From Pseudofrankia saprophytica (GTDB lineage Bacteria > Actinomycetota > Actinomycetes > Frankiales > Frankiaceae), in the NCBI RefSeq assembly GCF_000235425.2, contig NZ_KI912266.1, positions 3,787,671-3,851,670 of the forward strand: a DNA stretch of 64,000 nt, written 5' to 3'. The notes below the pieces were generated by a model, which was given only the letters and a program-made list of their open reading frames with translations, was not told the origin of the DNA and made no database searches. Shown in pieces: positions 977 through 17,698 of the stretch (positions are counted from its first letter, which is position 1; every line of letters starts with the position of its first letter). The position numbers were made by a program, and so were the translations under genes.

Positions 977-2269
977 ATGCATCGGCGACTGTTATTGTCC
1001 TTATCCCAGCTTCGCCGGCCCACGGCCCGACGATGGGGCCGAGTCACGGCCGCGGCGATGGCCACCATCTGTGTGGCCGCGGGCTGCTCGGGCTCGTCCG
1101 ACGCGGCGCGCCAAGCAGAAACATGCGACACACCCGGAGTTTCGGCCGGGGAGGTGCGTCTGGGGCTCATCTACCCGGATTCCGGGCTCATCGGTGACGT
1201 CCTGCGGGCCGCGCGCAGTGGCGTCGATGCCCGATTAAAACTGGCGAACGCCGAGGGTGGCGTGAACGGCCGACGCGTCAGCTACGACTGGCAGAACGAC
1301 GAGGCCAGCGTGAGTGCCAACAAGGTGGCCACCGCCAAGCTGGTCAGTCAGGGCGTCTTCGGGTTCCTGGAGATGACGACGGCCGGCTCCGGCGGTGCGG
1401 AGCTGCTGCGATCGCAGGGTATCCCGGCGGCGGGCCTGCCGAGCGAGCGGGTCTGGGCCGATCCGGCCTACCCCAACATGTTCACCTTTCCGTCCGACCT
1501 GACGAGTGAGCACGCGACCGACATCATCGGACGTTATGTCAAAGCGCAGGGCGGGACCAGGGCGATCATCGTCAGGAACGACACCGAGGAGTCGTCCCGG
1601 GGCTATGGCTCGTTGCTCGAACGCAGCGTTACCTCGGTGGGCATCCCGGCCCGCGTGATCTCGTTCAGCTCCGTCATCTCGAGTCCCGAGCAGCTCGCGG
1701 CCCAGATCCGCGCCGACGGCGCCGACGCCGTCCTCATCGCCATGGGCGGGGATGACATCGAGCGGGTCACCGCCGCGGCTCATTCCGCCAGCAGCGCCAT
1801 CAAGACCGTCATCGCGGTCAGTGGATACGGCCCGGATACGATCGAACGGTATGGCCGCACTGTCGCCGGGCTCGCGATCTTCGCCGCCATCACGCCGTTC
1901 GAGGCCGACATCCCAGCGCAGAAGACGTATCTGGGCGCGATGGCCCAGTACTCGCCGGAGTTCCAGCCGCCCAACGACGCCGTCGCCTACTCCAGCTACA
2001 TCGTCACCGACCTGTTTCTGCGCGGGCTGGCCGCCGCCGGGCCATGTCCCACCCGGGAGGCGTTCGTCAAGGGGCTGCGGGCGGTCAAGGACTACGACGC
2101 GGACGGTCTGCTCGCCGGGCCGGTCGACTTCAGCCGCAGCCTGGACCAGCAGGACAGCTGCTTCACGTTCGTCCGGGTGAACTCCGCCGGTACCGGCTAC
2201 GAGATCGTCCAGAACGAAGCCCCGGGCTCCAACCCGCTGCGGTGGTGCGGGAAGCCGCTCGCAAGCTGA
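977..2269 (+). CDS. Branched-chain-type ABC solute-binding lipoprotein
   Basis: A 430-residue extracytoplasmic solute-binding protein of the Leu/Ile/Val-binding (Peripla_BP_6, type I fold) family. The N-terminus is Arg-rich, followed by a hydrophobic stretch and a lipobox (CVAAGC, Cys at about residue 38), so it should be a lipoprotein facing outside the membrane. The mature part opens with GEVRLGLIYPDSG and contains the family's GVNGRRVSYDWQNDE region. No permease or ATPase genes of an importer are adjacent, so it is an orphan receptor. It is a clear paralogue of the protein at 45161-46447 (shared ARSGVDARL, VWADPAYPNMF-like and YDADGLLAG-like segments). The ATG at 977 is supported by GGAG at 968-971. 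Ligand unknown. Confidence 0.9.
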   Translation: MHRRLLLSLSQLRRPTARRWGRVTAAAMATICVAAGCSGSSDAARQAETCDTPGVSAGEVRLGLIYPDSGLIGDVLRAARSGVDARLKLANAEGGVNGRRVSYDWQNDEASVSANKVATAKLVSQGVFGFLEMTTAGSGGAELLRSQGIPAAGLPSERVWADPAYPNMFTFPSDLTSEHATDIIGRYVKAQGGTRAIIVRNDTEESSRGYGSLLERSVTSVGIPARVISFSSVISSPEQLAAQIRADGADAVLIAMGGDDIERVTAAAHSASSAIKTVIAVSGYGPDTIERYGRTVAGLAIFAAITPFEADIPAQKTYLGAMAQYSPEFQPPNDAVAYSSYIVTDLFLRGLAAAGPCPTREAFVKGLRAVKDYDADGLLAGPVDFSRSLDQQDSCFTFVRVNSAGTGYEIVQNEAPGSNPLRWCGKPLAS

Positions 2270-2298
2270 CCGCCGGGCCGGGAGTCGCCGAAGACCCG

Positions 2299-3222
2299 TC
2301 ACCGCCCCGCGGACAGCCGGTCGACGAAGCGGCCAAGGATGTCCAGCGCGGTCGCCGACTCGGGGAGGTCGGGCGCGACGCTCGGCCAGGTGTGTGGCAC
2401 GCCCGGGAGGACGACGGTCTCCGTCGGCACCCCGGCCCGCGCGAGCGCCGCCGTCATCGCGACCGTGTCGTCGAGCAGGACCTCGTCAGTGCTCGCGAAC
2501 AGCAACGTCGGCGGGAACGAGACGACGTCGGCGAGGAGCGGGGACGCCAGCGGGTCGTCCGGGCCATGCCCCTGGAGGTACTGCTCGGCGGCCTGCCTGG
2601 CGGACGCGAGGGAGAACAGCCGGTCGGTCGCCGACCGTGAGTGGTAGCTGGCCGCGGAGCACCGCAGGTCCAGCCAGGCGGACAGGAGGACGAGCCCGCG
2701 CGGGACGGGGACCTCGGCCCGGGCACAGGCGACGACGAGCGCGGCCGCCAGCCCGCCGCCGGCGGAGTCGCCCACGACGATCGGTGGCACGCCCGACTCG
2801 GCGAGGACCTGCTCATAGACCATCGCCGTGTCGTGCGCCGCCGCCGGATAGGGGTGTTCCGGCGCGAGCCGGTAGTCGACGACGACCACGCGGGCGCGGG
2901 CGGCCCGGGCCAGGCGGGCGGCGAAGGGCGTGAACTGGGCCGCCGAGCCCAGCCGGTAGCCGCCTCCATGGAGGTACACGAGGACGTCGCGGGGCTCCGG
3001 CGGCGTGCACACCACGCATGGCACGCCGGCGTATCGGGCGTCCCGGACGACGACGTCGGGCGCCGGGGCCGGCAGGGCCAGCGCGCCGACGGCCGCGCGG
3101 CGGGCGGCGAGGTCGGCCGGCGTCCGTATGGTCGACGGGCGTAGCGGTGGGAGCGGCCAGCCGGCGGCGGAGGCGGTGCGTTCTGCCGCTGTGGGGCCGT
3201 GGTTGGAATCGGTGGCCGTCAT
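2299..3222 (-). CDS. Alpha/beta hydrolase, HSL-type esterase
   Basis: A 307-residue carboxylesterase/lipase of the hormone-sensitive-lipase family (alpha/beta hydrolase fold 3). Visible hallmarks are the oxyanion motif HGGGY (about residue 85), VVVDYRLAPEHPYPAA, the nucleophile elbow GDSAGGG, the acid in STDEVLLDD and the histidine in GVPHTW. It should hydrolyse short-chain esters in the cytoplasm, as no signal peptide is seen. The ATG at 3222 has AGGAAGG upstream (minus strand). It is divergent from the IclR gene, and the only obvious dyad between them (3303-3318) recurs in front of the SDR operon at 7160. It may therefore belong to the same regulon, for example opening an ester or lactone. 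Confidence 0.92.
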   Translation of the reverse strand: MTATDSNHGPTAAERTASAAGWPLPPLRPSTIRTPADLAARRAAVGALALPAPAPDVVVRDARYAGVPCVVCTPPEPRDVLVYLHGGGYRLGSAAQFTPFAARLARAARARVVVVDYRLAPEHPYPAAAHDTAMVYEQVLAESGVPPIVVGDSAGGGLAAALVVACARAEVPVPRGLVLLSAWLDLRCSAASYHSRSATDRLFSLASARQAAEQYLQGHGPDDPLASPLLADVVSFPPTLLFASTDEVLLDDTVAMTAALARAGVPTETVVLPGVPHTWPSVAPDLPESATALDILGRFVDRLSAGR

Positions 3223-4218: not shown

Positions 4219-4259
4219 AGGTCCACTGAGGTTCGGGTCAGGCTTCCTCCAAGAGCGTG

Positions 4260-5414
4260 TCAGGCACCCTTGAAGAGGGCCTCGTAGTCGACGCGGTGCC
4301 CGCGCCTCTCCAGCTCCGGGATGACCTTCGTGCCGAGAAGCTCCAGGCCGCGCATCACCTTCTCGTGCGGCAGCGTGCCGAACTGCGTGTAGCACAGCAG
4401 CTGGTCGACGCCCGCCTCCTCGTACCGGAGGATCTTCTCGAGGCATTCCTCGGGAGTCCCCACGATGATCATGTCCTGCTCGGTGTACTTCCTGATGTCG
4501 ACGTCGCCCCGGATGGTGGGCTCGAGCAGCGGAAAGACCTTGGCCTTCTCCGGCTCGGGCAGGTGCGCGAGCTCCCATTCGAGGGTGAACTCGGCGAGGT
4601 TCTGGTACCACCACCGCACGGAGTCCCAGAGGCCGTAACGCTCGGCGTCGTCCAGGTCGTCGGTGCAGTGGACGAGGGTGTAGGCGCCCACCCGGTCGTT
4701 CCTGAACTTCGGCAGCGGCGTGTCGCCGTCGGCCTGGCCCCGGTGGTAGGTGGCGATGTGCTCGGCCATCTTCTCGACCGGCTGCATGAGCGCGAACGAG
4801 AGCAGCCCGAGGCCGAGCTTTCCAGCGTTGTAGGCGGACTGCTCGCTGGCCGCGGCGAGCCAGGCGGGCGGGTGCGGGTCCTGATATGGGCGAGGCGTGA
4901 TGAAGCGCTCCGGGAAGTCGATGGACGGCGACTTCCACGCCAGCCGCTCGTTCGTCCAGGCGGCGATGACGAACTCGAACGCCTCCCGCCACATCTGGCG
5001 GGAACGGTCGTCGGCCGGGACGCCGAAGGCGAGCTGCTCGTTGGGCGTCGAGCGGCCGGAACCCCATTCCACCCGGCCGCCGCTGAGCACGTCGACGGTG
5101 GCGACCTTCTCGGCCACCCGCACCGGATGCTGGAACCCCGATGGCAGCAGCACGACCCCGAAACCCAGCCGGATGTTCTCGGTGACCTGGGACAGCGCGC
5201 CGAGGATCGTCTCGTTGCACGGGGACGCCGACCGTCCCTGCCGGAAGTGGTGCTCCACCACCCACGCGGTCTGGAAGCCGAGCCTGTCGGCGAAGGTGAT
5301 CTCCTCGATCGCCTCGCGGTACGTCTGTTGCTCGGCGCGCTTCTGGCCTAAGGGGAACGGCTCCGGGTACGGGCCGATCTTCGGCTGGAACTCGTAGAGC
5401 AGGTCGAGCTTCAC
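4260..5414 (-). CDS. LLM-class flavin-dependent oxidoreductase
   Basis: A 384-residue luciferase-like monooxygenase (TIM barrel, FMNH2- or F420-using family). It opens with KLDLLYEFQPKIGP and contains FQTAWVVEHHF, LGFGVVLLPSGFQHPVRVAEK and LSGGRVEWGSGRS, all usual for limonene-monooxygenase/alkanal-monooxygenase-like proteins. The GTG at 5414 is chosen because AAAGGAG lies 7-8 bases upstream and because the family sequence begins there. An upstream in-frame extension to 5534 overlaps the next gene and has no family similarity. It is the last gene of a three-gene operon with two SDRs (29-nt gap). Probable role: oxygenation or reduction step in the degradative pathway. Substrate unknown. Confidence 0.92.
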   Translation of the reverse strand: MKLDLLYEFQPKIGPYPEPFPLGQKRAEQQTYREAIEEITFADRLGFQTAWVVEHHFRQGRSASPCNETILGALSQVTENIRLGFGVVLLPSGFQHPVRVAEKVATVDVLSGGRVEWGSGRSTPNEQLAFGVPADDRSRQMWREAFEFVIAAWTNERLAWKSPSIDFPERFITPRPYQDPHPPAWLAAASEQSAYNAGKLGLGLLSFALMQPVEKMAEHIATYHRGQADGDTPLPKFRNDRVGAYTLVHCTDDLDDAERYGLWDSVRWWYQNLAEFTLEWELAHLPEPEKAKVFPLLEPTIRGDVDIRKYTEQDMIIVGTPEECLEKILRYEEAGVDQLLCYTQFGTLPHEKVMRGLELLGTKVIPELERRGHRVDYEALFKGA

Positions 5415-5443
5415 CTGGGCTCCTTTCGAATCCGTTTCGCCCG

Positions 5444-6256
5444 TCACCAGGGCATGGAGGTGCCCCCGTTGGGCCGCATGATCTGGCCGGTGACGAACCG
5501 CGCGGCGTCCGACGCGAGATACAGCGCCGCCCACCCGATGTCCTCCGGCGTCCCGATCAGGCCCAGGGGCGAGATGTCCCGCATCGGCTTGAGGACCGCG
5601 GCGCGTCTGTCCTCGTCGACGGAGCCGTCGGGGCGGGTGTAGTGGCGCCGCGTCATGCTCGTCTCGATCAGGCCGGGCGCGATCGCGTTCACCCGCACCC
5701 CGTCGCGGCCGAGCTCGACGGCCAGCGTCTTGGTGAGCTGCACGATGCCGGCCTTGGAGATGCCATAGGCCGCCAGACCCGGCGCGGCCGCGTCGACGGC
5801 GCCGGAGGCCATGTTGATGATGCTGCCGCCGCCGGCCAAGGCCATCGCCCGGCCCGCCTCCTGGCAGCCGAACAGCACGCCCTTCAGGTTGACCGCCAGC
5901 ACGTGGTCGAACTCGGCCTCGTCGAGATCGAGCACCGGGACGTCGATGATGATCCCGGCGTTGTTGCAGATCACGTCAAGGCGGCCGTACTCGGACACCG
6001 CGGCGGAGACGAGCTCGGCGACGTCCTCGCGGTGGCTGACGTCCACGGTCGCCGCCTTCGCGACGCCGCCGGCGTCCCGGATCAACCCGGCCGTGTCCTC
6101 CGCCGCCGAGGCGGAGATGTCCGCGCACACCACGGCGGCGCCCGCCGTCGCGAACACCCGCGCGACCCCGCGCCCGATGCCGCTGCCGGCGCCGGTCACG
6201 ATCGCGGACCGGCCCGTCAGATCGGTCAGGGCCGCCAGCCGAGGCTCGCCGGTCAT
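5444..6256 (-). CDS. Short-chain dehydrogenase/reductase
   Basis: A 270-residue classical SDR. The NAD(P) motif TGAGSGIG is at about residues 19-26, NNAGI follows the Rossmann core, and the catalytic triad is Ser in INMASGA and Tyr/Lys in YGISK. It ends with GTPEDIGWAALYLASD and VTGQIMRPNGG. Asp after strand beta-2 (CADIS) suggests NAD preference. The ATG at 6256 overlaps the stop of the preceding SDR (ATGA), giving translational coupling. It works with the neighbouring SDR and the LLM oxidoreductase in one transcript, presumably oxidising a hydroxyl intermediate. Confidence 0.93.
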   Translation of the reverse strand: MTGEPRLAALTDLTGRSAIVTGAGSGIGRGVARVFATAGAAVVCADISASAAEDTAGLIRDAGGVAKAATVDVSHREDVAELVSAAVSEYGRLDVICNNAGIIIDVPVLDLDEAEFDHVLAVNLKGVLFGCQEAGRAMALAGGGSIINMASGAVDAAAPGLAAYGISKAGIVQLTKTLAVELGRDGVRVNAIAPGLIETSMTRRHYTRPDGSVDEDRRAAVLKPMRDISPLGLIGTPEDIGWAALYLASDAARFVTGQIMRPNGGTSMPW

Positions 6257-7285: not shown

Positions 7286-7717
7286 TCAGCCGAGGCTGGT
7301 GCCGTACACGTGGTCGACGGTCATCGTCATGAGCACCCTGCGGTCGGCCACCATCACCGAGCGGTATTCGTCCCAGTCCGGGTGCTCGCCGGCGGCGAGG
7401 CGGTAGTAGTCGACCAGGGCCTGGACCTCGGGACCGCCCGGGTCGGTTCCCGGCCCGATGAGCGTTGCGGTGCCTTCGGCGGTCGCCCACGCCCGGCCGT
7501 CGGGACTGGTGACTTCCAATGTGGCGCGCGGATCCCGACGCAGGTTCGCCGTCTTGGCACGGCCCTCGGTCATCGACACGTGGATGACGCCGGACCCCTG
7601 GTCGTAGAACGGCAGGACCGGGGAAAGCTGCGGACGGCCATCCGACTTGATCGTCGCGAGGACGCCGAGCCGGCTTTCCGCGAGCAGCGCGTGTGGGTCG
7701 AACGACGTGGTGGTCAT
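7286..7717 (-). CDS. PPOX-class F420-dependent-type oxidoreductase
   Basis: A 143-residue split-barrel flavin/F420-binding protein. Typical features are LLAESRLGVLATIKSDGRPQLSPV, the IHVSMTEGRAKTANLRRDPRATLEV segment that lines the cofactor site, and a closing VLMTMTVDHVYG. The length fits actinobacterial PPOX-family F420 enzymes. The ATG at 7717 begins the conserved part; an upstream ATG at 7750 in frame is possible but neither has a strong ribosome-binding site. Role: small-molecule redox in the cytoplasm. It lies just upstream of, and in the same direction as, the SDR/LLM operon but is separated by a hairpin. Confidence 0.88.
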   Translation of the reverse strand: MTTTSFDPHALLAESRLGVLATIKSDGRPQLSPVLPFYDQGSGVIHVSMTEGRAKTANLRRDPRATLEVTSPDGRAWATAEGTATLIGPGTDPGGPEVQALVDYYRLAAGEHPDWDEYRSVMVADRRVLMTMTVDHVYGTSLG

Positions 7718-7876
7718 GCCCGGTAGAAGGAGCGCCGCCGCGACGCGCATTCCGCCCGGCGGGACTCGCCACCTATGCCGATCGTGGTTTCTGCCTCCGG
7801 CGGTCGTCACCGAAATTCGCCGACCGGTTCGCGACCGCGGAAGGCACGAATCGCGATCGGGCCGCGGGCGCGGGCG

Positions 7877-8923
7877 TCAGGTGCCGCTGGCCTCCTGTTG
7901 CTTCGTCCGGCGCAGCGGTCGGCGGGGGAAGCCGCGGGTGTCGCGGGGCGGGGCGTACGGCTCGGTGTCGGCCGGGAGACCGCCGGCCATCGCCCGCTCG
8001 CGGGCCAGTTCCGCGTCGAACTCGAGCCCGAGCAGGATCGCGAGATTGGTCAGCCACAGCCAGACCAGGAAGATGATGATCCCGGCGAGGGTGCCGTAGG
8101 TCTTGTTGTACGAGCCGAAGTTGGCCACGTAGAACGCGAAGGCGCCGGAGGCAACCATCCAGATCACCAGCGCGAGCACGCTGCCGGGCGTCAGCCAGCG
8201 GAAACCCTGGTGCCGAACGTTCGGCGCCGCCCAGTACAGGATCGCGATCATCAGGATGACGAGGACGACGAGAACGGGCCACTTCGCGTACGACCAGACC
8301 TCGACCGTGGTTTGGCCGATGCCCAGCGCCGTCCCGGCCTGACGGGCGACGCCGCCGCTGAACACCACGATCACGGCGCTCAGCGCGAGCAGCACCATCA
8401 GCGCGACGGTCACCGCGATCCGCAGCGGCGCGATCTTCCAGACCGGCCGGCCCTCCGGCATGTCGTACACGGCGTTGGCCGCGCGGATGAACGCGGCCAC
8501 GTACCCGGACGCCGACCAGAGGGCCCCGGCCAGGCCCACGATCGCCAGCACACTGCCCGTGCCGCCGCTGTCGCGGATGCCGTTCACCGCGTTGCTCACC
8601 ACGTCCCGCGCGGAACCCGGCGTCAGGTCCTGGAGGTTCTCCAGGATCGTCGCCGTCGCGGACCTGCCGATCACGCCCAGCAGCGAGACCAGCACCAGCA
8701 GGGCGGGGAAGATCGCCTGGATGGAGTAGTACGTCAGGGCCGCCGCCCGGTCGGACAACGCGTCGTCATTGAACTCGGCGATCGTCCTGCGCAGCACCGC
8801 CCACCACGACCGCGGCCGCAGGTCGCGCAGCCGGTCGGGCTCGGCCTCCCGGACGGCCTCGTCCGGCCCCGTGCCCACCGCGAGCTCCGTAGGCTGGCGG
8901 CGCTTCCGCCTGATCGACACCAT
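7877..8923 (-). CDS. YihY/BrkB-family inner membrane protein
   Basis: A 348-residue integral membrane protein with about six hydrophobic segments. The family hallmarks are RAAALTYYSIQAIFPALLVLVSLLG near residue 60 and WGAAS/LWSASGYVAAFIRAANAVYD. The C-terminal GTLAGIIIFLVWLWLTNLAILLG and LGLEFDAELARER are also usual. The N-terminal 45 residues and last 35 residues are charged and cytoplasmic. The biochemical function of the family is not settled; a transport role has been proposed and the older ribonuclease BN label is not supported. It stands alone, divergent from the next membrane protein gene. Confidence 0.93.
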   Translation of the reverse strand: MVSIRRKRRQPTELAVGTGPDEAVREAEPDRLRDLRPRSWWAVLRRTIAEFNDDALSDRAAALTYYSIQAIFPALLVLVSLLGVIGRSATATILENLQDLTPGSARDVVSNAVNGIRDSGGTGSVLAIVGLAGALWSASGYVAAFIRAANAVYDMPEGRPVWKIAPLRIAVTVALMVLLALSAVIVVFSGGVARQAGTALGIGQTTVEVWSYAKWPVLVVLVILMIAILYWAAPNVRHQGFRWLTPGSVLALVIWMVASGAFAFYVANFGSYNKTYGTLAGIIIFLVWLWLTNLAILLGLEFDAELARERAMAGGLPADTEPYAPPRDTRGFPRRPLRRTKQQEASGT

Positions 8924-13887: not shown

Positions 13888-13944
13888 GTGTACGGCGTAG
13901 ATCTAGCCTGACGCCAGGTCTACAACGTAGACATACGCCGTATG
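13888..13944. promoter_or_regulatory. Cluster of dyads between tetR and exporter
   Basis: GTCTACAACGTAGAC (13918-13932) is a perfect dyad. GTGTACGGCGTAGAT (13888-13902) is a degenerate version centred exactly 30 bp away, and CATACGCCGTATG (13932-13944) is a third perfect dyad. The 30-bp spacing places two sites on the same helix face, as expected for two TetR dimers. Confidence 0.6.
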
Positions 13945-13995
13945 CGTCCGCCGTAAGCGGACGGCGTTACTCCGCCCGAGGAAGCCGAGGAAGCG

Positions 13996-15486
13996 ATGCG
14001 ACGCAGCCCCTGGGCCACGCTGGTCGTGCTGGCTCTCGCCCAGTTCGCCGTGGTGCTCGACGTGACGATCGTCAACGTGGCGCTGCCACACATCCAGGCG
14101 GACCTGGGCTTCTCCGCGTCCGGTCTGCAATGGGTGATCAACGCGTACACCCTGCTGTTCGGCGGGTTCCTGCTGCTCGGCGGGCGTGCGGCCGACCTGC
14201 TCGGTCGCCGCCGGATGTTCGTCGCCGGCCTGGTCCTGTTCGGCGCGGCGTCGTTGGTCGCCGGCCTGGCGACCACGTCCGGCGTGCTGATCACCACCCG
14301 CGCCGCGCAGGGGCTGGGTGGGGCGCTGATGTCCCCGGCCGCGCTGTCGATCCTCACCGTCACCTTCCCGCGTGGCCGGGAGCGCAACATCGCGCTCGGG
14401 ATCTGGGGCGGCCTCGCCGGCCTCGGCGGTACCCTCGGCGTGGTGGCCGGCGGCGTGCTCGTCGACGCGCTGAGCTGGCGGTGGGTGTTCTTCGTGAACG
14501 TGCCCATCGTGGTGGCGCTGCTCGCGGTGGTCCGGACCTTCGTGGCCGAGAGCGTCGCCGAACCGCGCGAGGTGGCCAGCCCGGCCGGCCAGGCGAGCCA
14601 GGCCGGCACAGCGGGCCAGGCACCCACCGCGGGACGGCGCTCGTTCGACGCGGCCGGGGCCTTCATCGGCACCGCCGGGTTGCTCGCGGTCGTCTACGGT
14701 GTGGTGCGCGCCGAGCCACTCGGTTGGGGGTCGATCGAGGTCGCGGGCGCGCTCGCTGGCGGCGTGGCCCTGCTCGCGGCGTTCGTCCTGGTGGAGCTCC
14801 GGTCGGCCGCGCCGCTGGTGCCCCCGAGGCTGTTCCGGTCGCGGGCGCTCACCACGTCGAGCGTGGCGCTCGCTCTGAACGGCGGCGCGTTCCTGTCGAT
14901 GTTCTTCCTGACCGCGCTCTTCCTGCAGCAGGTGCGCGGCGACTCGGCGCTCGCCGCCGGCCTGCACTTCCTGCCGATGGGCTTCGCGGCCGTCGCGGCC
15001 GCCGCCGTCGCCTCGCAGCTCGTCACCCGGATCGGTACCCGGCCGGTCCAGGTCGGCGGCGCGGTCCTCAGCGTCGCCGGCCTGGTGACGCTGATGCAGG
15101 CGGACGCGGACGGGAGCTATCTGACCGCGCTGCTGCCCGGGCTGCTGCTGTTCGGTTTCGGCATCATCGGCGTCGGTGTGCCCGCGCAGATCGCCGCGGT
15201 CGTCGACATCGAGCCACGCGACGCGGGCGCGGCGTCCGGCGTCGTGACCACCTTCTATCAGATCGGCGGCGCGCTTGGCCTCGCCGTCGTGAGCACGCTC
15301 GCCAACTCCCGCACCGCCGCGGCGCTGACCGGCGGCGCGCCGGGCCAGGCCGCGCTGGTCGACGGGTTCCACCGGGGCCTGGCGGCGGCGGCCGTCCTCG
15401 CGGCCGCCGGCGTCATCACGGCGCTCGGCTCGCCGCGACTCGCGCCGGCGCCGGACCGGGCAGTGGAGGCGGCCGCGGTGGCCTGA
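13996..15486 (+). CDS. MFS drug exporter, DHA2 (EmrB/QacA) family
   Basis: A 496-residue major facilitator with 14 predicted helices. Motif D1 LDVTIVNVALPHIQADL is at the first helix, motif A-like GGRAADLLGRRRMF lies between helices 2 and 3, and motif C-like GGTLGVVAGGVLVD sits in helix 5. This is the proton-driven multidrug efflux family of actinomycetes. The central cytoplasmic loop holds an Ala/Gly-rich repeat (QASQAGTAGQAPTAG). ATG 13996 follows GAGGAAG. The divergent TetR at 13879 is probably its repressor. Confidence 0.95.
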   Translation: MRRSPWATLVVLALAQFAVVLDVTIVNVALPHIQADLGFSASGLQWVINAYTLLFGGFLLLGGRAADLLGRRRMFVAGLVLFGAASLVAGLATTSGVLITTRAAQGLGGALMSPAALSILTVTFPRGRERNIALGIWGGLAGLGGTLGVVAGGVLVDALSWRWVFFVNVPIVVALLAVVRTFVAESVAEPREVASPAGQASQAGTAGQAPTAGRRSFDAAGAFIGTAGLLAVVYGVVRAEPLGWGSIEVAGALAGGVALLAAFVLVELRSAAPLVPPRLFRSRALTTSSVALALNGGAFLSMFFLTALFLQQVRGDSALAAGLHFLPMGFAAVAAAAVASQLVTRIGTRPVQVGGAVLSVAGLVTLMQADADGSYLTALLPGLLLFGFGIIGVGVPAQIAAVVDIEPRDAGAASGVVTTFYQIGGALGLAVVSTLANSRTAAALTGGAPGQAALVDGFHRGLAAAAVLAAAGVITALGSPRLAPAPDRAVEAAAVA

Positions 15487-15533: not shown

Positions 15534-15992
15534 TCAGAGACGCACGAGGGTCGTGGTGGTCGCCGGTGGGAGGGTCGTGGTGGTTGAGGGCGGGACCGTC
15601 GTGGTTGATGGGGGGACCGTGGTGGTCGAGGGCGGGACCGTGGTGGTCGAGGGCGGGACCGTGGTCGTTGACGGCGGGACCGTCGTCGCCGAGGGCGGGA
15701 CCGTGGTCGTCGACGGCGGGACCGTCGTCGTTGATGGGGAGACCGTCGTGGTTGACGGCGGGACCGTGGTCGTCGTCGACGTGACCGGTGGCTTGGTCGT
15801 CGTCCGTGGCGGATGGGTGGTGTGCCGTGGCGGGGACCACGGGCCGCACCCCCTGCCAAAGGTGCTGATGACGGGAACGCCAAAACCAAGCGTGATCATC
15901 TGTTTGATAAAGGCCCGCCGCCCGGCGCCCTCGGGAGGTCCGCCTTCTTCTCCCACGCTGTCCGCCGAATCGTCCCGTGAACCGTCTTCCAT
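15534..15992 (-). CDS. Small secreted-type protein with nine Thr/Pro heptads
   Basis: A 152-residue protein in three parts. Residues 1-24 are acidic and Gly-rich. Residues 25-46 (RRAFIKQMITLGFGVPVIST, continuing FG) resemble the RRxFLKK-type segments at the head of small proteins often encoded beside PqqD-domain genes, and could act as a Tat-like or membrane-anchoring signal. Residues 51-77 are a Pro/Thr linker, residues 78-140 are nine PPSTTTV-type heptads, and LPPATTTTLVRL closes the protein. The low-complexity, Thr-rich tail is an ideal O-glycosylation target. The ATG at 15992 lies 8 nt after the stop of the PqqD-fused glycosyltransferase and has GGGGGA before it. I infer it is that enzyme's substrate; the function is not established. 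Confidence 0.75.
   Translation of the reverse strand: MEDGSRDDSADSVGEEGGPPEGAGRRAFIKQMITLGFGVPVISTFGRGCGPWSPPRHTTHPPRTTTKPPVTSTTTTVPPSTTTVSPSTTTVPPSTTTVPPSATTVPPSTTTVPPSTTTVPPSTTTVPPSTTTVPPSTTTTLPPATTTTLVRL
15590..15780. repeat. 21-bp tandem repeat encoding the heptads
   Basis: The heptads of the preceding entry are encoded by about nine 21-bp units with mostly synonymous differences. The length being a multiple of three means that unit gain or loss would change the tail length without breaking the frame. Confidence 0.85.
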
Positions 15993-16000
15993 GTTCCCCC

Positions 16001-17698
16001 CTACACGTCACCCGCGGACGCGACCAAGTTATCGCATCGCCGGGATGGAAACTCGGCCGTCACGAGAACGTCGATTTCGCGGAGCTGCCCGACGCAACTG
16101 GCCACCTCGGTGGAGGGAGGCGTGGCCAGCGCAAAGGCCTCCGCGAGAGACTCGGCGATCTGAGCGATGGTGCGGCGGCCGTCGCAAAGTTCCAGAATCA
16201 CCGAGGCCGTGTTGTTCAGGCGGTGCTCGCGCGGAGGGGAATCCTGCCGGACCAGGAAACCGTCCGCGAGCTGGACCAGCTCGATCCCCGGCGCCAGCAC
16301 GGGCCGGTCGTCGCCCGGGCCGCCCCACGAAAGGTCGACCGCGGTGAGAAATCCGTCGGCGACGCGTTCGCGGAGGTAACGGCCCACGTCGCCCCAGGCC
16401 GCGTGGAAATCTTTCCAGGTGGGCGCGTCGTGCGGGAGATCCGTGAGGACGCGCTCATAGGCCCGTTCCCGGACGACAACCGCGCTCGAGGTCCGTTCCG
16501 AGGCTTCACCAACCGGCGGGGAAGCCGGGAGCAGGCATACATCCCAGTCCAGGTCGCTGGCCGTCGCGAGCCGGTCCAGGCTGTCCTGGCGGGTCGGCGT
16601 GACCGGGCCGGCCGGGTCATCGAGTACGAGAACGTGCGCATATCCACGCCGGGCCGCCGCGGTGATGACGGCCCGCCAGCGGGCCACCCGCCGACGCTCC
16701 AGCTCCGCCGTGGGCTCGGCGTCCGCGTCCGCCGCGACCCGTTCCATGCGCCAGGCGACGTCGTCCGGATGTGCGTGCGCGGCGCAGGTCTCCTCGTCGC
16801 CCGCCACGCAGAAAATCGCGTCGAAGACGGCCAGCGGGTGCCTGGCCTGGGCACGTGCCTGCGCGAACACGGCGTCGGTGTCGATGTCCGGGCCGAGCAG
16901 CTCCCGGAAGTGCTCCTCGATCGGCGCGTGATCCCAGCCGACCTCCGACCAGGCCACCTGGTAGTTCCGGATCCGGTCCTCCCACCGGTTCGCGTATCCG
17001 GTCCCGGCCGGCCGGGAAAACCGGTGCAACCAGCCCAGCCCGGGATGGCAGAGCACCCTCGCGCCCCGCTGGCGGAACTTCTCGTGCAGATAACCCTCCT
17101 CCGCGCCGAAGCCACGCAGCCTGGGGTTGAGCCCGGGCCAGGCCGCCCGGCGGCAGGCGAAGAGACCGAGGCCCTGCATCGAGATCTCGAACGGCTCGCC
17201 GCCCGGGTCGTCGACCCGCGCGTCGCGGCCCCACTGGCCGAACATGCCGGTGCCCCAGGTCGGCTCCAGATGCGTCGCGGCCGGCTCGCTCAGGCTGTCG
17301 TAGAACAACGGGCCCTGCAGCAGGTCCCGGCTGTCGGGATGAGCGTCGAACCAGGTCACGAGCTGGGCGAGCGCGCCGGGCCGAAGCAGCACGTGGGAGT
17401 CAACGCAGCAGACGATGTCCGCATCGGTCTCGCGGAAGACCAGGTCACGCACAGCCGTGCCGCGGTATCCAGTGAACGGAACGTACCGATAACCCGGAAT
17501 CCATTCCCCCAGCGCCCGCAGCGCGGCCGAGGCGGTTCCCTCGGGGTGGTTGTCGACGACGACGAAGGAAAGCTCGGCGGGAACGTCGGACTGGTACAGC
17601 CGGATAGCCTGGATAGTGAACCAGACCCCGTCGAAGTCGTCGTAGGTCGCCATGCCCACGCATAGCCGTGGCAGCGCCCGCCCCCGTGGATCCGGCAC
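16001..17698 (-). CDS. Glycosyltransferase fused to a C-terminal PqqD-like domain
   Basis: A 565-residue protein with three apparent modules. Residues 10-250 are GT2-type (RLCVGMATYDDFDGVWFTIQ, VVVDNHPEG, DxH at CVDSH 98-102, GFGAEEGYLHEK 197-208). They resemble polypeptide GalNAc-transferase-like bacterial enzymes. Residues 285-455 look like a degenerate GT25-like module (ELERRRVARWRAVITAAARR, HVLVLDDPAG, DWDVCLLPA). Residues 471-550 match the PqqD fold (FLVRQDSP, HRLNNTASVILELCDGRRTI, QIAESLAEAF, then VGQLREIDVLV), the leader-binding element of RiPP enzymes. GTG 17698 is used, with a weak ribosome-binding site. It precedes the Thr-rich protein by 8 nt, pointing to a dedicated enzyme/substrate pair. 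Activity and sugar are unknown. Confidence 0.85.
   Translation of the reverse strand: MPDPRGRALPRLCVGMATYDDFDGVWFTIQAIRLYQSDVPAELSFVVVDNHPEGTASAALRALGEWIPGYRYVPFTGYRGTAVRDLVFRETDADIVCCVDSHVLLRPGALAQLVTWFDAHPDSRDLLQGPLFYDSLSEPAATHLEPTWGTGMFGQWGRDARVDDPGGEPFEISMQGLGLFACRRAAWPGLNPRLRGFGAEEGYLHEKFRQRGARVLCHPGLGWLHRFSRPAGTGYANRWEDRIRNYQVAWSEVGWDHAPIEEHFRELLGPDIDTDAVFAQARAQARHPLAVFDAIFCVAGDEETCAAHAHPDDVAWRMERVAADADAEPTAELERRRVARWRAVITAAARRGYAHVLVLDDPAGPVTPTRQDSLDRLATASDLDWDVCLLPASPPVGEASERTSSAVVVRERAYERVLTDLPHDAPTWKDFHAAWGDVGRYLRERVADGFLTAVDLSWGGPGDDRPVLAPGIELVQLADGFLVRQDSPPREHRLNNTASVILELCDGRRTIAQIAESLAEAFALATPPSTEVASCVGQLREIDVLVTAEFPSRRCDNLVASAGDV

Follow-up and report, generated by a model that had tools for sequence, protein, structure and literature searches.

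Our study concerns a two-gene locus of the soil actinobacterium Pseudofrankia saprophytica (RefSeq assembly GCF_000235425.2, 9.98 Mb in two contigs), located in a stretch of 64,000 nucleotides of contig NZ_KI912266.1 (positions 3,787,671 to 3,851,670) that we refer to as the window. In this locus, the gene of a glycosyltransferase (GT) fused to a PqqD domain is followed by the gene of a threonine- and proline-rich partner protein, and both the sequences and the structural models lead us to consider that the two probably form a leader-guided O-glycosylation pair. The fusion gene (16001-17698, minus strand) starts with GTG and encodes 565 amino acids; two other genomes of its genus carry orthologs that are 79% identical (our loci L001 and L085), the close relative L001 being Frankia sp. 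AgB1.9. The partner gene (15534-15992, minus strand) encodes 152 amino acids, the proposed acceptor, and its start codon lies 8 bases downstream of the GT stop codon. This layout, described in an original prediction made from the DNA letters, is confirmed by the coordinates of the open reading frames (ORFs). A G-rich stretch resembling a ribosome-binding site, GGGGGGA (15995-16001, minus strand), overlaps the GT stop codon and precedes the partner start in all three orthologs.

In the partner, an acidic N-terminus is followed by a segment that resembles a twin-arginine motif, by an FxVPxI motif, and by a tail of Thr/Pro repeats. The twin-arginine-like motif reads RRAFIK (residues 25-30; 15903-15920, minus strand) and becomes RRSFLK in L001 and L085. 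It is followed by FGVPVISTFG (F37 to G46; 15855-15884, minus strand), a candidate recognition sequence for a RiPP recognition element (RRE; RiPP, ribosomally synthesized and post-translationally modified peptide), of which the three orthologs have F-x-V-P-x-[VI]-x-T-[FL]-G in common. The tail (residues 54-152, 99 amino acids) contains 41 Thr, 25 Pro, and 11 Ser, and it includes nine PPSTTTV-like heptads in register (residues 78-140; 15573-15761, minus strand), the same number as originally predicted, six of which are exactly PPSTTTV. The orthologs in L001 and L085 have the same N-terminus (GRRSFLKQMVALGFSVPTVNTLG) and a different repeat, TTTLAP/TTTLVP, so that the leader region is 58% identical among orthologs while the repeats differ. 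For the tail, the proportions of synonymous (pS) and nonsynonymous (pN) differences were 0.52 and 0.19 between the window and L001, and 0.29 and 0.03 between L001 and L085, in a protein-guided alignment, a procedure that favours pS over pN. The possibility of a DNA tandem repeat misread as a gene was rejected, as the amino-acid composition of the tail is kept while its codons have changed. We therefore consider the partner gene to be real, based on three facts: the orthologs have the same N-terminus, their tail composition persists despite codon drift, and GGGGGGA stands before all the starts. An antisense ORF of 264 amino acids (15553-16347, plus strand) overlaps the GT and partner genes, and it is probably spurious, a side effect of the Thr/Pro repeat in G+C-rich DNA. 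We also considered a lipoprotein anchor at the conserved Cys49 and rejected it, since the preceding residues, inspected by eye, make no usual lipobox. No surface anchor was identified in the partner, and the mucin-like surface stalk of the original prediction is consequently hypothetical.

The domain at the C-terminus of the GT (residues 466-547; 16058-16303, minus strand) was assigned by profile and by fold. The PqqD-like domain that the original prediction had placed here, and had singled out for such comparisons, was recovered by all of them. First, the Pfam family PF05402 (PqqD) matches residues 492-540 with 29.2 bits (cut-off 23.4). Second, a profile of this domain, searched against solved chains, finds the lasso peptide protein TbiB1 at an E value of 2.4e-16. 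Third, the domain, modelled separately from the full-length GT using 28 sequences (mean predicted local distance difference test score, pLDDT, 84), has an RRE-type fold: its leading Foldseek matches are the TfuB1-leader complex, PqqD, the PbtF RRE, and the TbiB1-leader complex, the first two alone reaching an E value of 0.001, and its best entries are 6jx3_B, 5sxy, 8t19, 5v1u, and 5v1v, the first two with E <0.001. A chance resemblance to PqqD was rejected, as profile and fold agree. Taken together, sequence and model indicate that this domain is a PqqD-like RRE, for which leader binding is predicted. The original prediction had this domain grip the N-terminal part of the partner. Sequence and fold support a leader-guided reading of that kind, but the RRAFIK segment reads as a twin-arginine translocation (Tat) motif, and the better candidate for the gripped element is F37-x-x-P40-x-I42-x-x-x-G46, directly downstream of it and of the YxxP type.

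The catalytic part of the enzyme is a GT2-type domain (residues 8-291; 16826-17677, minus strand) whose residues 16-122 match the Pfam family Glycos_transf_2 above the cut-off. The full-length protein was modelled with AlphaFold2 from an alignment of 16 homologs (mean pLDDT 73.6). Its top Foldseek matches in the PDB include Toxoplasma and animal polypeptide N-acetylgalactosamine (GalNAc) transferases, the collagen galactosyltransferase COLGALT1, and 9u7i, an entry named merely "a glycosyltransferase"; the alignments to COLGALT1 and 9u7i are long and loose (root-mean-square deviation, rmsd, of 22-24). In VIA-align 2, ranks 1-29 are occupied by 29 polypeptide GalNAc-transferase entries (Z from 23.0 to 19.0, rmsd 2.9-3.6, over residues 7-292), followed by chondroitin polymerase (Z 18.7) and RmlT (Z 17.9), and the identity to the polypeptide GalNAc-transferases over the domain is 12-17%. 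Judged from this model, the domain is a GT-A enzyme of the polypeptide GalNAc-transferase type by fold. Its Asp-Ser-His (residues 100-102; 17393-17401, minus strand) constitutes a DxH, which we take to be the metal motif of the GalNAc-transferases, and D100 and H102, together with H225, are invariant in all 16 aligned homologs.

Polypeptide GalNAc-transferases (family GT27) usually have a ricin-type lectin domain at their C-terminus. No such domain was found in the window GT by Pfam searches with E values up to 1, and its position is occupied by the RRE and by a GT25-like middle domain (residues 292-435; 16394-16825, minus strand). The latter was part of the original prediction, which is correct insofar as the domain aligns with the GT25 of homologs, where Glyco_transf_25 scores above the cut-off at the equivalent position (L014, L088, and L087), but the window GT itself has no Pfam match to the GT25 family (E up to 1). 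Its acidic motif reads LVLDDP instead of the LVLEDD of L002, L003, L005, and L014, and its INLD..R segment has been lost; the middle domain is therefore degenerate in this protein. The mycofactocin glycosyltransferase MftF (TIGR03965) was also considered and set aside, as the NCBIfam matches of the window GT (E up to 5) do not include it.

The two genes have the same distribution. The GT is present in three of the 35 genomes of the order, and the first 66 residues of the partner occur in exactly the same three; in the class, the GT core is found in the same three of 393 genomes. Elsewhere its occurrence is sparse and scattered (1 of 385, 8 of 297, 2 of 42, 2 of 298, and 4 of 369 genomes); these groups were centred on the genomes of four homologs, and each count includes the centre itself. 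In total, 1,882 genomes were searched, repeats counted. The GT protein has no match in 72,556 plasmid records at an E value of 1e-20, and a mobile element was accordingly discarded. We then have 29 homologous GT loci: the window, L001 to L014, and L077 to L090. Within them, a Thr-rich ORF was defined by a count of 9 or more Thr within 30 residues, and as near when located within 3.5 kb of the GT. Excluding three ORFs inside the GT gene, and with no dropping by eye, there are 30 Thr-rich ORFs near the GT and 3 far from it, over 180 and 98 kb, respectively (one-sided binomial p 6e-4); with a stricter threshold of at least 11 Thr, the figures are 20 and 1 (p 1e-3). Near neighbours of this kind occur at 21 of the 29 loci, in four named phyla. 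As the original prediction had anticipated, GT-PqqD fusions elsewhere tend to adjoin Thr-rich proteins: five of the six other fusions do so (L001, L085, L010, L088, and L089, not L006), including three of the four outside the genus.

It is important to consider that such a neighbourhood might be coincidental, and that the GT might make a cell-wall or exopolysaccharide. Most GT2 domains serve in glycan synthesis, actinobacteria commonly have Thr-rich proteins, and eight of the 29 loci have no Thr-rich neighbour: L002, L006, L008 (a contig of 3.5 kb), L080 to L083, and L086. We nevertheless regard this explanation as very unlikely, given the identical distribution of GT and partner, the breadth of the Thr-rich neighbourhood among loci and phyla, and the fact that the nearest folds are those of polypeptide transferases.

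The leader provides a more specific association. The near Thr-rich ORFs, listed with the three GT-internal ones, number 33, nine of which were dropped by eye as wrong-frame ORFs or fragments (L001 2802-3386; L010 5584-5970; L012 1-152, 253-744, and 1406-1882; L013 6029-6373; L085 5589-6029; L086 4290-4832; and window 13920-14672), leaving 24. An RR followed by [FYW]xxPx[VIL] is present in 17 of these 24 proteins, from 14 loci, versus 35 of 3099 background RR sites drawn from all reading frames of the loci. The seven proteins without the motif belong to L005 and L014, where PqqD is present in cis, and to L009, L011, L013, L079, and L084. According to a profile search, 14 of the 29 loci have a PqqD domain: fused to the GT in seven, at the C-terminus (window, L001, and L085), at the N-terminus (L006, L010, and L088), or within a longer GT (L089); as a separate protein in five (L003, L004, L077, L078, and L087); and fused ahead of a Tat-type, Thr-rich protein in two (L005 and L014). 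The profile was built from 27 domains that include those of L003, L004, L010, L014, and L077, and these five match by construction, each having passed the Pfam cut-off beforehand. The leader motif occurs in 12 of the 14 loci with PqqD versus 4 of the 14 others (p 0.006 in a Fisher test that treats related loci as independent, omits L008, and counts L002 as lacking PqqD because its domain, recognized by eye as the final part of an N-terminal PqqD, is truncated at the contig edge). Those four are L002, L007, L012, and L090; the genomes of the first three carry PqqD elsewhere, in addition to the cut domain of L002 itself, and L090 shares its genome with L089.

Several members of this set deserve a separate description. 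In L005 (4120-5013, plus strand) and L014 (5203-5754, minus strand), one polypeptide comprises PqqD, a twin-arginine signal, and a Thr-rich tail, and it adjoins GT2-GT25 genes. Their lack of the aromatic-x-x-Pro motif is what one would predict if a tethered PqqD need not dock in trans; two cases are too few for proof. In L002 and L006, the leader motif occurs without a Thr-rich tail: these are Beggiatoaceae peptides of 65 and 58 amino acids (L002, 2844-3041, and L006, 5468-5644, both plus strand) with RREA[ML]KK...YTAPAVI leaders and hardly any tail, located near GTs with an N-terminal PqqD, that of L002 being the cut one. The precursor of L010 matches StsA below threshold (13.9 bits against a cut-off of 42; E 0.039). 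L087 encodes, directly upstream of two Thr-rich leader proteins, a second and different GT2 (2012-3127, plus strand; Glycos_transf_2, 62 bits) whose C-terminal PqqD-like domain, at 19.3 bits, falls short of the Pfam threshold of 23.4; perhaps it is a glycan-extending enzyme that uses the same leader.

Apart from the loci without a Thr-rich neighbour, a series of observations weighs against leader-guided glycosylation by this pair. L009, L011, L013, L079, and L084 have a Thr-rich neighbour and neither the leader motif nor PqqD at the locus, and a PqqD search of the L009 and L011 genomes found nothing, which implies that the RRE is not always needed. TIGR01409, the NCBIfam Tat model, matches none of the three orthologous partners; among the 17 leader-type proteins scanned, it scores above the cut-off in five (L087, L014, L005, L004, and L077). 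The loci are also related to one another, with L080 to L082 near-identical in the GT core, L003 and L077 in a single genome, and L089 and L090 in another, so the locus counts overstate independence. In a tree of the 29 GT cores, resolution is weak: only 6 of the 26 inner branches are well supported, and L014, the nearest relative of the window GT outside the genus, is joined to it at just 80/52. With regard to structure, the full-length model, built from those 16 sequences, scores low in its RRE part, and the lowest of the GalNAc-transferase matches (Z 19.0) is tied with chondroitin polymerase. The GT-core sequence profile, compared with PDB sequences, yields no GalNAc-transferase, its sole result being one weak GT2 match (6h1j, E 2.4e-4). 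The GalNAc-transferase resemblance noticed originally is thus borne out by fold (VIA Z 19-23) but not by sequence profile, and the relation is one of fold.

The exceptions among the loci bear most directly on the main rival of our interpretation, according to which the GT itself recognizes Thr-rich tails, making it an acceptor-specific O-glycosyltransferase that is not guided by a leader, with the RRE vestigial or serving as a mere tether or chaperone. PqqD-less GTs do adjoin leader-less Thr-rich proteins, with a Thr-rich C-terminal tail in L084 and L079 and poly-Thr/Pro in L013. We judge this rival unlikely for two reasons. First, PqqD has been kept or re-attached in three arrangements, and its presence is associated with that of the leader motif, as counted above. 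Second, the F and P of the motif are conserved in the three orthologs while the repeats drift. Leader guidance remains our preferred reading, and the PqqD-less members beside Thr-rich tails on other proteins (L079 and L084) suggest that what the members share is an affinity for Thr-rich acceptors, RRE guidance being an addition or a loss.

The neighbours of these PqqD-less GTs are of different kinds. In L084 (5145-6164, minus strand), L079 (9463-10314, plus strand), and L083 (8995-9864, minus strand), they are, by eye, secreted and barrel-like proteins with Thr/Ser-rich C-terminal tails, weak in L083; the GT2 genes beside them have no PqqD at the locus, and the protein of L084 has no Pfam match. 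L009, L080, and L082 adjoin another protein of secreted and barrel-like appearance (IGR[FL]EVRYSDFNKK), which is tail-less. In L013, from Rhizocola hellebori, a protein of 434 amino acids that has extended poly-Thr/Pro stretches and, in its C-terminal part, hydrophobic segments (4239-5540, plus strand) ends at the start of the GT ORF, and neither PqqD nor a leader was found at that locus.

A further explanation is that the partner, as a RiPP-like precursor, mainly undergoes another modification, for example phosphorylation by the HprK-related domain that relatives carry on their GT, with the GT in a secondary role. HprK relatives phosphorylate lasso precursors, and the N-terminus of the L003 GT does contain an HprK-related domain (TIGR04352, 87.8 bits, below the cut-off of 200). 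The window GT, however, has no such domain, and the only other adjoining genes scanned, those of an MFS protein and a GntR-aminotransferase, do not encode kinases, so we find this explanation highly improbable. Beside the HprK-GT gene of L003, we also observed an NTP_transf_5 family protein (7320-8351, minus strand; 97.4 bits), and a similar-looking one is present in L004.

From the architecture, the folds, the co-occurrence, and the motif enrichment that we observed in the locus and its relatives, we infer RRE-leader binding, sugar transfer to threonine, and Tat export, which would proceed as follows. In the cytoplasm, the RRE would bind FxVPxIxxxG as a beta strand, in the manner in which lasso RREs bind YxxP leaders, and would thereby hold the Thr/Pro tail of the partner at the GT active site. 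The GT would transfer a nucleotide sugar onto many threonines of the tail. With the recognition site located inside the export signal, the modified partner would be released to the Tat machinery after glycosylation and exported as a mucin-like glycoprotein. Other lineages appear to rearrange the same parts, with the RRE at the GT N-terminus, free-standing, or fused to the acceptor. We tentatively extend this proposal to a modular family of bacterial mucin-makers, a generalization that we hold as possible and offer with reserve: an RRE would read an aromatic-x-x-Pro element in a Tat-type signal, serving both as a dock that lets a GalNAc-transferase-like enzyme act processively on a Thr/Pro tail and as a checkpoint that would keep the signal masked until glycosylation of the tail has taken place, and the parts would be fused in at least three ways (GT N-terminus, GT C-terminus, and acceptor) in Actinomycetota, Chloroflexota, and Pseudomonadota. 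RREs are known as guides for small-peptide chemistry, and here the same grip appears to steer the dense glycosylation of an exported repeat protein, the enzyme being one that is closest, among solved folds, to those that initiate mucin glycosylation in animals. If true, this would constitute a genetically simple, two-gene bacterial route to mucin-like glycoproteins, one in which a single signal ties modification to export, and glycoengineering would gain a natural glycosyltransferase that is directed by a leader. The existence of three fusion arrangements also puts the guidance hypothesis within reach of direct tests with short peptides.

Fusion of an RRE to a glycosyltransferase is not in itself new, since such proteins are already in print: they are mentioned in RRE-Finder (PMC7470986) and in its 2025 update, where the RRE-fused glycosyltransferase is PF00535 (PMC12710340). 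The consulted passages of these two papers do not mention a Thr-rich, Tat-type substrate for such fusions, the loci being drawn in supplementary figures, and we recognized no report of that pairing in searches of the open-access literature, bioRxiv excluded. The recognition motifs described for RREs include the YxxP and WxxP types, and the WxxP of StsA is bound by an RRE (PMC12710340). In this regard, the window domain has its RRE fold in common with the lasso B1 proteins TbiB1 and TfuB1, and the F-x-x-P of its proposed partner is similar to the YxxP of lasso peptides and the WxxP of the StsC system. The window enzyme differs from both in being a glycosyltransferase whose proposed target is a long Thr/Pro repeat tail, theirs being a short peptide core. 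The HPr-rel-A/SynChlorMet cassettes (TIGR04352, TIGR04353, and TIGR04248) are comparable to the HprK-related domain of L003 and to the PqqD-family proteins that L004, L005, L014, and L077 have near Tat-like precursors; all these matches are below the family cut-offs, and the window pair has no HprK-related part. The animal and Toxoplasma polypeptide GalNAc-transferases provide the closest solved fold and have the invariant DxH and, as proposed for the window enzyme, a Thr/Pro-rich acceptor; unlike them, the window GT has an RRE, no lectin domain that we could find, and the low sequence identity given above. Finally, in the serine-rich-repeat glycoproteins of streptococci, GtfA/GtfB O-glycosylate a repeat protein in the cytoplasm, which is then exported by accessory Sec. 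Cytoplasmic O-glycosylation before dedicated export is also what we propose for the window pair, which, unlike the streptococcal system with its accessory Sec and no RRE, would rely on a different GT family, an RRE, and a Tat-like signal.

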